A DNA stretch of 64,000 bases, taken from positions 1-64,000 of the forward strand of contig NZ_FWXI01000008.1 of the NCBI RefSeq assembly GCF_900176355.1, in the 5' to 3' direction. Shown here one piece after another: positions 37,432 to 43,085 of this stretch. Positions within the stretch are counted from its first letter, which is position 1. Each line of letters starts with the position of its first letter. Origin of the DNA: Sporomusa malonica (GTDB lineage: Bacteria; Bacillota; Negativicutes; Sporomusales; Sporomusaceae). The notes beneath the pieces were generated by a model that saw only the letters and a program-made list of their open reading frames with translations, had not been told where the DNA came from and did no database searches. The position numbers were made by a program, and so were the translations under genes.

Positions 37432-38652
37432 CTACAGGTTTTGAACAATGTCTGTCCGATACGTCAATACTGCCGGAATAAGCCCAGCTATCATACCAAC
37501 TATGGCTCCGCCGACAGCAATATACACCTCAGCAGAGGTAATGCCGGTAGTTAGCGCAATAGCTGTCTTGCTTGCCGCTGCCCCAGCCAAGAGCGCGTAT
37601 ACACCATGCCCGAGCAGGCTGCCAACAATGACCCCGGTCAAAGAAATGATAGCTCCTTCAGTAAAAATAATAGCAAAGACATCATGGGTACTGGCACCAA
37701 GAGCACGTAAGATAGCCCGCTCCCGAGCCCGGCTCAACGCTGACCAGTAAATCGATAACACCATTATCATCAGCCCCATCGCGACTATTATATAGGCAAC
37801 GGTTTTTAACGCCTGTTCACCTTGCCCAAGTATGGCAAATAGCTGAACAATTACCTGAGCTGGAAAGACAATTTGTGCTGCCGGTTCCCGCTGAAACTGC
37901 TGATAAAGACGCATAGCTTCACTATACCCTTTAGGCTTTATAAGAATGGCGGTAACTGCTTGCTCGTGATCATGATCGTCATGGCTCTCAGTATTTTCTG
38001 CTGCGGCAAGGCCAGGCTCATGTTTTTCATGGGCCTCCCAGATGCTGGCAATCGAAACCAAGATGGCATGATCATAGGGTCCGTTTACCGATTGTAGTAA
38101 CCCTACAACACGGTAAGGCCGGTCATGGCTCTCGCCTCCAGCAATTGAACCGTGGACTGATTTAAACTCATCGCCAAATTTTAAACCCAAGGCCTGTGCT
38201 GCTCTTGCACCGATTACAGCCTCAAACGGCTCAGTAAACGGTCGCCCTTCTGCCATTTGCAGCCATTCTGGCTGGCCTGTTTTAGCCTGATGCTTAAAAA
38301 TACCATTCCCGGCCCCAATGATGTTGTAGCCTTTATAGTTGTCACCAAAAGCCAGCGGTATGGCGGCAGCGACTAATGGATTATTTGCAATTTTGCCATA
38401 AACAGCATAATCAATATTCCCGATAGGCGTATCTTGCAGAAAAACAGTATTTAAAACCAGCTGATTAGGGCTGCCTTTAGCTCCTGCGATTAGATCAAAC
38501 GGCTCGGTGGCCCGCACAAGCCCGGCTTGAATGCCACCAGCCAGCAAGGTTACTGTTACCATCATAGCAATTGACATGGCAGCCACAACTACGGTTAGAC
38601 TGTTCTGTACCGGTTTTGCCAGAAGATTACGCCAAGCTACCGCAAACCGCAC
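37432..38652 (-). CDS. FtsX-like (MacB/LolC-type) ABC permease with His/Asp-rich loop
   Basis: 406 aa: one N-terminal helix, a large extracytoplasmic domain (about 40-270), three C-terminal helices with SRARERAILRALGAS (about 318-332). The extracytoplasmic domain contains a metal-binding-looking run around residues 205-228 (HEKHEP...ESHDDHDHEQ). Such permeases with a LolD-type ATPase drive mechanotransmission or lipoprotein/peptide export rather than import. GTG start behind AAGGTGAATACCG overlaps the ATPase gene by 26 bp. Last gene of the phoA operon. Confidence 0.82.
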   Translation of the reverse strand: MRFAVAWRNLLAKPVQNSLTVVVAAMSIAMMVTVTLLAGGIQAGLVRATEPFDLIAGAKGSPNQLVLNTVFLQDTPIGNIDYAVYGKIANNPLVAAAIPLAFGDNYKGYNIIGAGNGIFKHQAKTGQPEWLQMAEGRPFTEPFEAVIGARAAQALGLKFGDEFKSVHGSIAGGESHDRPYRVVGLLQSVNGPYDHAILVSIASIWEAHEKHEPGLAAAENTESHDDHDHEQAVTAILIKPKGYSEAMRLYQQFQREPAAQIVFPAQVIVQLFAILGQGEQALKTVAYIIVAMGLMIMVLSIYWSALSRARERAILRALGASTHDVFAIIFTEGAIISLTGVIVGSLLGHGVYALLAGAAASKTAIALTTGITSAEVYIAVGGAIVGMIAGLIPAVLTYRTDIVQNL

Positions 38653-39325
38653 CGGTATTCACCTTCCCTTCTGTCCGCCCAAGCGAGTATACCTGGGGAA
38701 ATTGATCTATAACTTGCCGATCATGTGTGGCTACCAGCAATATACTGTTATTCTCCTGCGCTAGCTGTCTGAGGAGTTCAATGACCAGTATACTGTTATC
38801 ATGATCAAGGCTGGCCGTAGGCTCATCAGCCAAAATTAGACGCGGCTTATTGACAATTGCTCTGGCAATAGCAACCCGCTGTTGCTCGCCCATGCTCAAT
38901 CGCTGCGGCCTGCTGTTAATTCTGTCAGCCAAACCTACAATTCCCAGCAGCTTTATCGCCCATTGACGTCGCTCCTGCTCAGGAATCACGCCAGCAAAGC
39001 TCATGGGTAGCAGCAGATTATCTACGATATTCAGGCTGGGAAGAAGGTTTAGCCTCTGAAAAACATACCCCACAGTAGTGGCGCGCCAGCTATCACGCCA
39101 CCTTTCAGACATACCTGAAATATTGGTACCAGCAAAAATGATTTCGCCACTAGTCGGGGTTAGCAATCCGGAGATGAGATGCAGCAAGGTCGTTTTACCT
39201 GAACCACTCGGTCCGACCAATGCCAGCTGCGCTCCTGCTTTGACACAAAGTTTATCAATAACAACAGCTGTTACTGTTTGCGACTGGTCTCGATAATCTT
39301 TGCGGACTTGATTTAACTCCAACAT
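38627..39325 (-). CDS. LolD/MacB-type ABC ATPase
   Basis: 232 aa with Walker A GPSGSGKTT (about 37-45), Q-loop YVFQRLNLLPSL, Walker B LILADEPTASLD and the H-loop ATHDRQVI. The signature reads LSMGEQQRVAIARA, with Met for the usual Gly at position 3. Partner of the overlapping FtsX-like permease. ATG behind GAAGGAGCTGGCGTC. Confidence 0.87.
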   Translation of the reverse strand: MLELNQVRKDYRDQSQTVTAVVIDKLCVKAGAQLALVGPSGSGKTTLLHLISGLLTPTSGEIIFAGTNISGMSERWRDSWRATTVGYVFQRLNLLPSLNIVDNLLLPMSFAGVIPEQERRQWAIKLLGIVGLADRINSRPQRLSMGEQQRVAIARAIVNKPRLILADEPTASLDHDNSILVIELLRQLAQENNSILLVATHDRQVIDQFPQVYSLGRTEGKVNTGAVCGSLA

Positions 39326-39354
39326 GACGCCAGCTCCTTCACGTTTAATAAAAG

Positions 39355-39885
39355 CTATTCAATACTATCCGCATATACCCTCACCAGGCTGACAAAACCA
39401 GTCTCGTCGTCCATCTGATACCCTAGCTCCAACCTGCCGGTGACAGTAATGGGGCGGTCAAAAGATAACGCAGTTACTGGCTGTGAAAGCTTTACCACCA
39501 CAATATCATTCGGCCAGTCGGCATCTGTTGAGCAAAACGGACATATTGCCATAGGTACTTTTGTCAGAACAAAAAAACTCAAGGTTGGCTTGAGCGGAGG
39601 AGCCATAAAGCCGCTAATCTTAACCACCTTACCATCAAGGCTTTTAAGCTTAGGCGATAATTCGAGCCCCAATGCCGAAGCGCCGCTGTACATTTCATTA
39701 AATTCTAAGGCTGTAGCCTGCTCTCCAAACCATGGCAGCCAAGCTGGTGCCGCCTGGGCGGGAGTACAAAACAGGGACGATTCCGCTCGGGGAACCGTCC
39801 CTTCTTGCCCCGTCCAGGGCAGCGGCAGCCCGGCCACAATGATGGCAAGGATTATTGCACACATACACCTGGCCAGTTTTACCAT
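39355..39885 (-). CDS. Exported protein, DUF3299-like
   Basis: 176 aa with an N-terminal signal peptide (1-21). The core, DGKVVKISGFMAPP (about 84-97), AICPFCSTDADWPND (about 113-127) and DRPITVTGRLELG, matches the DUF3299 family, beta-rich exported proteins that usually adjoin LolD/FtsX ABC genes. The CPFC pair could bind a metal or be redox-active. It lies 18 bp after phoA and ahead of the ABC pair, so belongs to the same operon. Function unknown. Confidence 0.7.
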   Translation of the reverse strand: MVKLARCMCAIILAIIVAGLPLPWTGQEGTVPRAESSLFCTPAQAAPAWLPWFGEQATALEFNEMYSGASALGLELSPKLKSLDGKVVKISGFMAPPLKPTLSFFVLTKVPMAICPFCSTDADWPNDIVVVKLSQPVTALSFDRPITVTGRLELGYQMDDETGFVSLVRVYADSIE

Positions 39886-39903: not shown

Positions 39904-41718
39904 CTATTTTTTTGCAGTTTTACGACCGTCTAAGCCTAGGGCACGCGCAATTCCATAAAACACTTCCGTATTGTCCAGAACACCTTTGAAGTACTCGGCG
40001 CCAGGACCTTCGGCAGTCAGCGGTACATCATCGGCAGCATGAACCTCTGACGGATCTGAGGTAGGAATGTTACCGACTTTAAGTTCACTCCCCTGGGGAG
40101 CTCGTTTCGGATTGGCTACAGCCTTACCGTTAGCCATGATGGCTGGCGAAGTGGGCACTCCCTGGAATCGGTAGTTCTCGTAGTAATCCGGGTGATTGGC
40201 AAATTGAACAGCCAAAGTCACGCTCGGATTGGGATCATCCGGGAAACCATCGCCGTCAGTATCGGCAAAAGTCGTCCAGCCTGCATCGCCATAAATACGG
40301 ACTGCGTCGCGGCCGGTTTTTCCATCCAATTCATGATAAGTACCGGTAATGCTGGCACCATGTGCATGGTCAGCTACAACTATGATTAGTGTGTCGCCGT
40401 TCTTTTTGGCAAACTCTTTGGCAATGCCTACCGCTTTGTCCAGCTCGATGGTATCATAAGCAGCCCGCTGCCAATCCATAGTATGCAGTTGTTTATCAAC
40501 GCAGGCTCCTTCCACCATTAAGAAAAAGCCATTAGAATTTTTGCTTAGGGTGTCAATCGCAGTTTTCGTCATATCCATAAGGTTCGGCTGATCAGTAAAC
40601 TTACCGAGAACAGCCGGATTTTTAGTTACCTCGCGGTCAATATACACGTCCATATTATCAAGTTGGAAAAGACCAAGCAACTTACCCGGTGAAGCCGTCT
40701 TTAACTCAGTCTTGTTTGTTGCAACTGTATATCCCTGCTCCTTGAACTCTGCAATCAGATTCCTATCATCGGTACGTTTTGAGCCTGGCACACTCTTTGG
40801 TAAAAAGTGGCGAGAACCGCCGCCGAGAATGACATCAGGGCGGTGCGCAGGATTAAGCATATCCTGAGCGATGTAGTTTTGCTCACTGCGTCTGCGGGTA
40901 TGTGCCAACATGGCTGCCGGCGTAGCATCAGTTATATTAGCTGTAGAAACGATACCAGTACTCATCCCGCGAGTCCGTTTTGCCAGCTCAATAATATTTT
41001 CCACCTTGGGATCATCTAATGGATCTTTGCTGCTGTCAGCATATACACCCATTGCGTTCACAGCGGTTTTATGGCCGGTGGCATAGGCTGAAGCACTGTT
41101 TGCCGAATCTGTGACTAACGAATCATTGCCTGAGGTAGTAACAATAGCCACATTGGACATGGTATCCATTTCCAGGAGACCGTTATATTTACCTTCGGTA
41201 ATCCCTTTAGATAGAATGCGGCCGATTTGACGGGCTTGCAGGCTCATACCGTCCCCAACAAAGAGGATTACATTCTTAGCCTGTTTTCTGGCCTTCTCGG
41301 CAGTCACATCATAATTGATGAAACGCTTCTCCATGCCCTGCTCGGTTTTTACATTAACAACTACTGCTACTTTGCCAGCTTGGGTAAAAGCAACGTCGTT
41401 TATACGGTATGTACTCATGTTGTCAAACTTGATAGCAGCCTCTTTGCCAAAGTATTTTTCAGCTTTCATCCCGTTTACCAAAACTTCTATTGCTTTAGCT
41501 GGAGCATCTGTTTTGACCTCAATAGCAAAGTCAAATTTTTGTCCAATCAGGAACTTGGCCCGGTCGATCGGTAAAACATTAACATTCGAGACTTGGGGCG
41601 CACTATAAGCAGCATAAGTTACCGTCGTTCCTGTCAGAAATGAGGCAATAACCGCCAGCGCCACCACAACCCGCAAAAAACGGGATTGGCTTAATACAGA
41701 CATACTTGGTTTGTACAC
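39904..41718 (-). CDS. phoA: Alkaline phosphatase
   Basis: Exported phosphomonoesterase, 604 aa. Signal peptide (about 1-33), metal-binding FVGDGMS, the nucleophile motif VTDSANSASAYATGHK (Ser in DSA), DITDATPAAMLAHT, MVEGACVD and the C-terminal VVADHAHG with metal-binding Asp and His. An N-terminal Ig-like insertion of about 90 residues precedes the catalytic domain. GTG at 41718 is 8 nt after GGAGG; an in-frame GTG three codons earlier overlaps that ribosome site. Behind a three-repeat Pho box, first gene of an operon with DUF3299, LolD and FtsX genes. Confidence 0.92.
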   Translation of the reverse strand: MYKPSMSVLSQSRFLRVVVALAVIASFLTGTTVTYAAYSAPQVSNVNVLPIDRAKFLIGQKFDFAIEVKTDAPAKAIEVLVNGMKAEKYFGKEAAIKFDNMSTYRINDVAFTQAGKVAVVVNVKTEQGMEKRFINYDVTAEKARKQAKNVILFVGDGMSLQARQIGRILSKGITEGKYNGLLEMDTMSNVAIVTTSGNDSLVTDSANSASAYATGHKTAVNAMGVYADSSKDPLDDPKVENIIELAKRTRGMSTGIVSTANITDATPAAMLAHTRRRSEQNYIAQDMLNPAHRPDVILGGGSRHFLPKSVPGSKRTDDRNLIAEFKEQGYTVATNKTELKTASPGKLLGLFQLDNMDVYIDREVTKNPAVLGKFTDQPNLMDMTKTAIDTLSKNSNGFFLMVEGACVDKQLHTMDWQRAAYDTIELDKAVGIAKEFAKKNGDTLIIVVADHAHGASITGTYHELDGKTGRDAVRIYGDAGWTTFADTDGDGFPDDPNPSVTLAVQFANHPDYYENYRFQGVPTSPAIMANGKAVANPKRAPQGSELKVGNIPTSDPSEVHAADDVPLTAEGPGAEYFKGVLDNTEVFYGIARALGLDGRKTAKK

Positions 41719-41785
41719 TAGTTGCACCTCCGTGAATAATTGGTTTTTTCCCTATTCCTATTATGACAGGCCTCAAGGTGCACAA

Positions 41786-41813
41786 AGTTAAATAATGGTT
41801 AATTTTATGTTAA
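41786..41813 (-). promoter_or_regulatory. Pho box of the phoA promoter
   Basis: On the minus strand three hexamers TTAACA, TTAACC, TTAACT occur with exact 5-bp spacers (11-bp period), matching the PhoP/PhoB direct-repeat consensus TT(A/C/T)A(C/T)A. A -10 candidate CATAAT follows at 41760-41765. Confidence 0.82.
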
Positions 41814-41833
41814 ACCATCTCATTTTTCCATAA

Positions 41834-41861
41834 TTTACATTTTATTTACTTTCACTTAACA
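41834..41861 (+). promoter_or_regulatory. Pho box of the divergent Tat-HD gene
   Basis: On the plus strand hexamers TTTACA, TTTACT, TTAACA occur with exact 5-bp spacers, mirroring the phoA box 20 bp away. A -10 candidate TAAAAT lies at 41882-41887. Confidence 0.78.
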
Positions 41862-41918
41862 CTGAGCGGGCAGTAATCAACTAAAATATTTCTAGTCCAT
41901 AAAATTGGAGGGATAGCT

Positions 41919-43085
41919 GTGAACAACTTAATTAAAGACATGACACTTGACTGTAACCGGCGTGACTTTATTAAAATGTCGGCAGGCGCGATGGCTGCAT
42001 TAGCCGCAACTACACTCCCCCTTTCTATAACTGCAAAGGCCCCGTCAATCAAAGCCGCTAAAATCTCACTTAAGGATTGTCTGGCAATGGATCCAATAAC
42101 CATGGCCGAAAAATCCTCTTACGTGAAATCGTCCTATGACTATTTACTAAAAACAGCCAATGAAATTCAAGACATCAAACTTCGCCGTTCGACAATTGAA
42201 ATACTACAAAATCCTGCACCCCGCCTGTTGGAACTCTACCCGTCAAATGCCGAGAAAGAGCAGGCAAAGCAGCGCCTGGTGGCAGCAGGATGGCTAAAAC
42301 CTACTGCGGCCTACGATGACTTTCTGCCGCCATGTAACAACCCAAGTAAGGCAGTAATTCCTTTCTACGCAGCGCCAGGAAGTGGCTATGGCAGCCATCA
42401 CTCCTATCCGGGCGGACTTGCCACTCATGTTGCCGTAAATGTCAAAGCAGCCCTTGGCTTTTTTAACGCTTACAAAGATATTTATGGCTTTCCCATGAGC
42501 CGGGACGTAGTAATTGCCGCCCAGTCGCTTCATGACCTGCATAAGCCCTGGGTTTTCCAGTGGCAGAAAAATGGCGCCTCCCGCACAGAATTTCCGATCG
42601 CCGGTCAAGGCGCCCACCATGTTCTCAGCCTTGCCGAGCTAATCCACCGCCGCTTCCCGGCAGAAGTTATTGTTGCCCAAGCTTGCGCCCACAATCATCC
42701 CGGAACCCCTGATGACGAGCGTGAAGTTGTTAGTTGGCTAAATGCAGCAGCGATTTTGGCAAATCAAGACGCTGTTTCTTTCGGTTTATTGACCGAAGAT
42801 GGTAAGACTCTGCCCTTGCCCCGCCGCACTGAAGGTTTTATTACCCACTTAGGCGATCACGATTGGGTATTGTCTGTTCCTGTTGCCAAGTGGATGATTG
42901 CCAAGCTTGGCGAAATTGCTAAACAGGAATATCAGATGACTGACGCCGACCTACAGAGCCAAAAATTCTATGCCTTTAGAAACTACGTTTTTTCTCAGGC
43001 TACACTGGAGCAGCTTTATTTAATTTGGACAGTTGACAGCCAAGCTGCACTTGTCGACACCGTGAAGTCAATCGTAACACCGTAA
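41919..43085 (+). CDS. Tat-exported HD-domain protein
   Basis: 388 aa. Twin-arginine signal CNRRDFIKMSAGAMAALAATT (Arg pair near residues 13-14). The mature part has an HD-type metal site: GGLATHVAVN (His), SLHDLHKPWVF (His-Asp, about residue 208), GQGAHHVLSLAELI and QACAHNHPG supplying further histidines. HD proteins are usually cytosolic metal phosphohydrolases; Tat export fits a cofactor loaded before translocation. GTG start behind GGAGGGATAGCT. Its own Pho box and divergence from phoA point to phosphate scavenging from an organic phosphate outside the membrane (inference). Confidence 0.78.
   Translation: MNNLIKDMTLDCNRRDFIKMSAGAMAALAATTLPLSITAKAPSIKAAKISLKDCLAMDPITMAEKSSYVKSSYDYLLKTANEIQDIKLRRSTIEILQNPAPRLLELYPSNAEKEQAKQRLVAAGWLKPTAAYDDFLPPCNNPSKAVIPFYAAPGSGYGSHHSYPGGLATHVAVNVKAALGFFNAYKDIYGFPMSRDVVIAAQSLHDLHKPWVFQWQKNGASRTEFPIAGQGAHHVLSLAELIHRRFPAEVIVAQACAHNHPGTPDDEREVVSWLNAAAILANQDAVSFGLLTEDGKTLPLPRRTEGFITHLGDHDWVLSVPVAKWMIAKLGEIAKQEYQMTDADLQSQKFYAFRNYVFSQATLEQLYLIWTVDSQAALVDTVKSIVTP

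Follow-up and report, generated by a model that had tools for sequence, protein, structure and literature searches.

What do two outward-facing repeat arrays, which separate an alkaline phosphatase gene from the gene of an exported protein, tell about the control of both genes and about the exported protein itself? The DNA in which they lie, here called the window, is a stretch of 64,000 nucleotides from Sporomusa malonica. From its sequence we predict a divergent pair of Pho promoters, driving phoA with a Zrg-like module on one side and, on the other, a Tat-exported HD-domain phosphohydrolase with a dinuclear metal site, a reading to which we assign a probability of roughly 0.8.

Opposed hexamer arrays between phoA and the HD gene

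In the 191-bp intergenic region (41728-41918), TTWACW-like hexamers recur in two arrays, one on either strand, each with an exact period of 11 bp. The array upstream of the HD gene (41834..41861, plus strand) reads TTTACA-N5-TTTACT-N5-TTAACA, without a mismatch to three TTWACW units, and that upstream of the phoA operon (41786..41813, minus strand) reads TTAACA-N5-TTAACC-N5-TTAACT, with one; they face outward, with 20 bp between them (41814-41833). The hexamer sequences, the period and the opposed arrangement 20 bp apart, all described in the first-pass annotation, are correct to the base. On both strands of the 64-kb window, three TTWACW units at this period occur once without mismatch and once with one mismatch, which are these two boxes, never with two mismatches and five times with three; the periods of 8, 9, 10, 12, 13 and 14 bp, pooled over the window, give no match with up to one mismatch and a single match with two. 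As base composition leads one to expect 0.016 sites with zero or one mismatch per 64-kb window, the scan and this expectation together led us to reject chance repeats as an explanation.

The arrays share with the Pho boxes of Escherichia coli and Bacillus subtilis the 11-nucleotide head-to-tail direct repeat that, in the part of the source drawn on here, is described as the binding site of the phosphate response regulator (PMC4415409), and they stand, here too, at pst and phoA genes. The Sporomusa box consists of three TTWACW units ending 20 bp before the -10 element, whereas in E. coli phoA the last hexamer, ending in CA, ends about 11 bp before it. We presume a likeness of the boxes to a TTAACA consensus of Firmicutes PhoP, of which no printed version was found in the literature searched.

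A fixed distance to the -10 element

A -10 element for the HD gene, TAAAAT (41882..41887, plus strand), lies 20 bp after the third hexamer, and a Shine-Dalgarno-like GGAGGG (41907..41912, plus strand) precedes the GTG start at 41919. On the minus strand the -10-like CATAAT of phoA (41760..41765, ATTATG on the plus strand) follows its third hexamer at the same distance of 20 bp, its first base breaking the TAnnnT pattern. For a broader view we aligned 28 sites, six hand-picked from the organism's own genome and 22 found upstream of HD homologs with at most three mismatches, the -10 element having played no part in their choice. In 21 of them the distance from the third hexamer to TAnnnT is exactly 20 bp, and any other distance is seen in zero to three; the CATAAT of the phoA promoter, at the same spacing, is outside the 21 counted. 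The -10 elements of pstS and pstC follow their boxes at 20 and 21 bp, respectively. With this spacing the third hexamer would extend into the -35 region, a position that suits an activator in contact with the polymerase. At HD loci outside the Negativicutes no fixed -10 spacing was found (at most three of 27 sites at any distance).

Such an arrangement suggests a mechanism in which, when phosphate becomes scarce, a PhoB/PhoP-type response regulator would bind head-to-tail on each (TTWACW-N5)x3 array. The arrays would abut the core promoters, with the third hexamer at about -38 to -33 and 20 bp between it and the -10 element, and the bound regulator would recruit RNA polymerase in both directions. 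Leftward transcription would then yield phoA and a DUF3299-like/ABC-ATPase/FtsX module resembling the Vibrio Zrg system, and rightward transcription a Tat-exported HD-domain phosphohydrolase, either a phosphodiesterase or a phosphatase, with a dinuclear metal site. We infer PhoB binding and induction by low phosphate.

The same repeat at the pst genes

Can the regulator be named with more assurance from the rest of the genome? In the 5.19-Mb assembly, perfect triple TTWACW repeats occur at four places, namely the plus-strand box discussed here, pstS, pstC and the gene of a 284-aa protein, compared to 0.03-0.04 expected genome-wide by composition. One mismatch is seen in eight matches (1.3 expected), some of which fall on an array already counted, read one unit further along, and two mismatches in 54 (23 expected), a class with heavy background; with zero to two mismatches pooled, the reversed pattern used as a control gives 37 matches versus 66 for the real one. 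About half of the two-mismatch matches are thus background, so that lone weak sites prove little. The longest pstS reading frame begins 24 bp past its box and pstC 64 bp past its own; the actual start of pstS is probably further in, since that of the longest frame would overlap the -10 element. A gene for a PhoB-like regulator adjoins pstB and phoU; its best NCBIfam match is TIGR02154 (PhoB, 7.7e-81), at a score under the equivalog cut-off. Divergent from pstS is the gene of a WalK/PnpS/PhoR-like kinase, for which the WalK model scores highest and no model exceeds its cut-off. The perfect repeat upstream of pstS and pstC and the PhoB-like regulator next to pstB and phoU support the assignment of the arrays to the PhoP/PhoB layout, as it had been proposed at the outset, and two divergent Pho promoters are very likely present, as predicted from sequence.

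The repeats could instead bind another regulator of the OmpR family, responding for example to envelope or metal stress, with phosphate not being the signal at all. Direct repeats spaced by about 10-11 bp are used by regulators of this family too, and the genome holds 25 matches to the Trans_reg_C domain; moreover, sub-optimal copies lie upstream of chemotaxis genes (L036, L038), the kinase divergent from pstS scores best as WalK and the PhoB-like regulator stays below the PhoB cut-off. However, pstS and pstC account for two of the four perfect matches, eight of 12 full-length phoA orthologs have a copy upstream, and GTCA-type repeats resembling the E. coli PhoB box can be present at the HD gene in other phyla. 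We thus consider control by another OmpR-family member very unlikely and retain a PhoB/PhoP-type regulator as the preferred reading.

Further copies of the repeat, of varying quality, were recorded in the genome. The 284-aa protein encoded behind a perfect box (L037:143-994, minus strand, contig C24) could be placed in none of the Pfam or NCBIfam families at the thresholds applied. A GtrA-type gene has an upstream box with one mismatch and a gene for an ABC ATPase one with two, both with a -10 element at 20 bp. The same spacing is seen for a two-mismatch box (L035:12756-12783, minus strand) which precedes a gene resembling monogalactosyl-diacylglycerol (MGDG)/diglucosyl-diacylglycerol synthases, where a swap of glycolipids for phospholipids under low phosphate is possible. 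A second alkaline phosphatase gene (L041) has a two-mismatch box with no -10 element at 20 bp, and a third one is located at C28:112231. A weaker Pho-box-like site lies upstream of a c-di-GMP-type gene, and three more are associated with chemotaxis: one before a CheX-like gene which is followed by a chemoreceptor gene (L036:15906-15933, minus strand, C24), one before a chemoreceptor gene with no -10 element at 20 bp (L038:3494-3532, plus strand, C36), and a one-mismatch site near a chemoreceptor gene but facing away from it (L039, 3725, plus strand).

Recurrence of the box upstream of HD homologs

Homologs of the HD gene were analyzed at the best 80 of 156 loci found, from named genomes. Upstream regions of 35 Negativicutes and 44 other loci were compared, leaving out one from Negativicutes (L121) with a short upstream; the two groups were assigned by hand, and the box thresholds were set after a first view of the upstream boxes. 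In this selection, 15 of the 35 Negativicutes upstreams carry a sense-strand box with at most two mismatches, compared to none of 35 on the antisense strand, none at periods of 9, 10, 12 and 13 bp, six in 165 upstreams of other genes and no box in 20 rounds of dinucleotide shuffling. In the other phyla, 10 of the 44 upstreams, likewise among the best 80 of 156 loci, carry the E. coli-type repeat YGTCAY-N5-YGTCAY with zero or one mismatch, for example in Leminorella (L114), Sutterella (L122), Accumulibacter (L115, L124), Desulfovibrio (L086) and Bilophila (L079); here the antisense strand yields none, periods of 9, 10, 12 and 13 bp yield 1, 1, 0 and 1, other genes four of 198, and shuffling a mean of 0.1. 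As some of the loci are related (two from Propionispira, several from Sutterella), these counts do not represent independent events. At the thresholds used, the box is missing from 20 of the 35 Negativicutes and 34 of the 44 other HD upstreams; some of the genes concerned may be internal to operons or have diverged boxes.

In the surroundings of the HD gene, phoA recurs at 20 of the 80 loci as judged by tblastn, and at 17 by clustering; at 14 of the 80 it is accompanied by a DUF3299-like gene and an ABC ATPase gene, and at 12 by the permease gene as well, all counts referring to the best 80 of 156. At Sutterella-type loci (L094, L101, L109, L116) the HD gene follows phoA, the DUF3299-like, the ABC and the FtsX genes on the same strand. 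Elsewhere HD gene and phoA are arranged in tandem (L130, L134, and L141 with a distant phoA paralog) or lie apart, and at two loci (L096, L111) tatC and phoA form a run from which the HD gene points away. The divergent HD-phoA pair itself is found only in Sporomusa malonica among the loci fetched.

Could phoA then be the only phosphate-regulated gene here, with the right-hand box an accident or an additional array serving phoA, and with unrelated control of the HD gene? The confinement of the divergent adjacency to one genome among the loci fetched would fit this, as would the fact that most HD upstreams fall below the strict box threshold. However, the plus-strand box has its own -10 element at 20 bp, other genomes have the HD gene and phoA side by side in tandem, and four HD homologs (L070, L073, L084, L123) keep a sense-strand box with no phoA in the surrounding DNA examined, from which we conclude that the HD gene has a box in its own right and does not owe it to phoA. 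Control of phoA alone was rejected on the box counts upstream of HD genes and the -10 spacing of the plus-strand box, and we give it hardly any credence. The HD gene is very likely a phosphate-starvation gene, as predicted from its upstream sequence; the earlier proposal of this role gains from the homologs that keep the box away from phoA.

A scan of relatives for the same paired boxes had also been suggested, together with the expectation that the repeats would persist there. That expectation was largely borne out: the repeats recur, with at most two mismatches, upstream of 15 of 35 Negativicutes HD genes and eight of 12 full-length phoA orthologs, but 20 of 35 and four of 12 are devoid of them at this threshold, as are the distant phoA paralogs of L139-L142. 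Single boxes thus recur in relatives upstream of HD genes and of phoA, but among the loci fetched the divergent pair is seen here only.

The HD loci have further neighbours. At 12 of the 80 loci a TatC-type cluster is present no more than about 4 kb from the HD gene (L085, L093, L096, L097, L107, L110, L111, L112, L113, L118, L120, L126; best 80 of 156), its identity as TatC being confirmed by Pfam for L112 and L111, which suggests that the HD protein is a main Tat substrate there. At five loci of Desulfacinum type and from Sporomusa (L048, L056, L058, L060, L061), the gene of a YibE/F-like membrane protein follows phoA near the HD gene, an assignment made by Pfam for the L056 member and by clustering for the rest. 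One homolog (L055) lies beside a gene for a phosphonate-binding protein. One metagenome-derived genome has a second, interrupted HD copy (L025, G021:C16, and L053), in which a stop and a change of frame set off the N-terminal part; this may be an assembly error.

The phoA operon and its Zrg-like genes

Four minus-strand genes, spanning 41727 to 37432, would share the minus-strand Pho promoter. The first encodes the alkaline phosphatase PhoA (PF00245; 39904..41727, minus strand), with up to 607 aa from the listed GTG start at 41727; the GGAGG site is better placed for a GTG at 41718. It is followed, on the same strand, by the gene of a 176-aa DUF3299-like (ZrgE-like) protein with a CPFC motif (39355..39885; PF11736 E=0.019, 15.5 bits versus a cut-off of 22), by that of a LolD-type ABC ATPase (38627..39325), which is ZrgC-like by gene order, and by that of an FtsX-type permease with a His-rich loop, SHDDHDHE (37432..38652). 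Of 12 full-length phoA orthologs, 11 have the DUF3299-like gene and the ABC ATPase gene behind them, and 10 of these also the FtsX-type permease gene within the DNA examined. Eight of these 12, our own included, have a sense-strand box with at most two mismatches. The four box-less cases comprise one in which phoA is the second gene after the HD gene (L130), one at a locus without upstream DNA (L137), and two with four (L132) and three (L138) mismatches; none of the four loci with distant phoA paralogs (L139-L142) has a box.

The gene set resembles the zinc system Zrg of Vibrio, for which the relevant part of the source describes a DUF3299 protein, an ABC ATPase and an ABC permease in one operon (PMC9817125). 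The likeness is one of gene content and concerns genes two to four of the phoA operon; as far as that account goes, ZrgABCDE is controlled by Zur and includes the zinc-binding ZrgA (DUF2796), whereas the Sporomusa operon is headed by phoA, lies behind a Pho box and has no ZrgA among its four genes. Pfam matches DUF3299 in two of seven members only, under the cut-off, and no PDB sequence matches the DUF3299-like protein at E ≤1. With DUF3299 scores below the Pfam cut-off, the link to Zrg is only suggestive, and the genes at 37432-39885 (minus strand) are possibly a Zrg-like zinc-handling module within a Pho operon. Such a phoA-Zrg operon suggests a coupling of phosphatase production to metal supply, with the ABC module as the presumed supplier.

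The HD protein: Tat signal, probable metal site and relatives

The gene on the right (41919..43085, plus strand) encodes a 388-aa Tat-exported protein of the HD superfamily, with ligand-type residues at H170, H205-D206, H233/H234, H258 and D313. Its twin-arginine leader scores 22.1 bits against TIGR01409, above the cut-off of 16.7, and 22.3 bits against PF10518, just below that of 22.7; no Pfam family exceeds its cut-off, the HD family reaching 14.3 of the 22 bits needed. In a family of 66 sequences, TAT_signal is matched by 45 and HD (PF01966) by 43, both at E ≤0.1, and RRx[FLIV] occurs in the N-terminal part of 55.

Two alignments were used to define the invariant residues. The first combines the window protein with 27 of 29 other loci, omitting a weak one (L024) and the interrupted copy of L025, and was not selected by motif; the second, a set for which patterns covering two of the motifs served in the search, combines it with 65 loci from the best 80 of 156, omitting two with stops in the translation (L089, L091) and 13 more, six members (L114, L060, L096, L107, L108, L118) being taken from their own ORF start. 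H160, H161, H170, H205, D206, K209, H233, H234, H258 and D313 are invariant in all 28 and all 66 sequences. The family thereby has the complete H..HD..H..H..D set that is described, in the portion of a superfamily review used here, as diagnostic of a dinuclear HD site (PMC8177086).

An AlphaFold model of the protein has a mean pLDDT of 92.3 and a pTM of 0.87, and a Foldseek search with it gave no match at E ≤0.001. The top match is a weak one to the exoribonuclease YhaM (E 0.041, probability 0.89, TM 0.22/0.36, rmsd 15.2), which is also the only sequence-profile match at E <0.01 (hmmsearch E 0.0017). The HD protein has in common with the YhaM/Cbf1 3'-5' exoribonucleases the region HH...GL..H...HD..K; the full-length similarity expected within the YhaM family is absent, with only profile positions 136-199 of 377 aligning. 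YhaM is a cytoplasmic RNase with an N-terminal OB fold, whereas the HD family is Tat-exported and Pho-linked, and the fold match between the two is weak. Classification as an HD-GYP c-di-GMP phosphodiesterase was rejected, the GYP motif being absent from the sequence.

The simplest reading of the protein is a phosphoester hydrolase acting outside the cytoplasm, and, as judged from its motifs, it is probably a phosphohydrolase that is exported and has a dinuclear metal site; hydrolase activity and a role in scavenging are what we infer for it. Alternatively it could be a binding protein, or a diiron oxygenase like PhnZ or MIOX that sets phosphate free from phosphonates. These mixed-valent diiron oxygenases share the H..HD..H..H..D set, again according to the portion of the review used (PMC8177086), and the homolog in L055 lies beside the gene for a phosphonate-binding protein. 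The ligand motif is what was seen in common with them; PhnZ and TmpB have a YxxE loop in addition. Tat export, YhaM as the nearest solved relative and the linkage of the HD gene to phoA at 20 of the best 80 of 156 loci speak against such a function. Moreover, many organisms that host the family are anaerobes. An oxygenase or a binding protein is thus an unlikely alternative to the exported phosphohydrolase.

Implications for phosphate acquisition

Pho control has strong computational support. Computation also supports the boxes with their fixed -10 spacing, the recurrence of these boxes, the linkage of the genes, the HD motif and the Tat signal. Of 150 genomes sampled from the class, 41 have the HD family, our own included (E <1e-100), and it occurs, among the best 80 of 156 loci, also in Desulfovibrio-type, betaproteobacterial, gammaproteobacterial and planctomycete genomes. 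PhoA, PhoD and PhoX are metal enzymes outside the cytoplasm whose synthesis rises under phosphate starvation, PhoD and PhoX being exported via Tat. The HD protein would share this setting of exported, Pho-controlled metal enzymes with PhoA, PhoD and PhoX but, judging from its motifs, differ from them in its fold, an HD domain. A Pho-regulated or exported HD protein family was not found in the literature searched, mostly by narrow combined-term queries, and the words 'secreted' and 'periplasm' are absent from the main text of the HD superfamily review (PMC8177086).

We tentatively propose, at somewhat less than even odds, that the HD family constitutes an undescribed exported scavenging phosphodiesterase or phosphatase with a fold unlike that of PhoA, PhoD and PhoX, and that the HD gene, phoA and the genes of a Zrg-like transporter for metal loading make up a conserved module of phosphatase plus metal supply under Pho control in Negativicutes, Sutterella-type Betaproteobacteria, Bilophila-type desulfovibrio and Planctomycetes. 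The pairing of phosphatase and metal supply in one module is plausible in itself, and the HD enzyme is likely a phosphate scavenger.

Pho boxes as such are well known; in this case they point to a likely physiological role for an unnamed family of exported enzymes, in a superfamily whose members are usually studied as cytoplasmic proteins. If the prediction is true, a Pho-controlled, exported HD enzyme would be a further route to phosphate for anaerobic bacteria of soil and gut.
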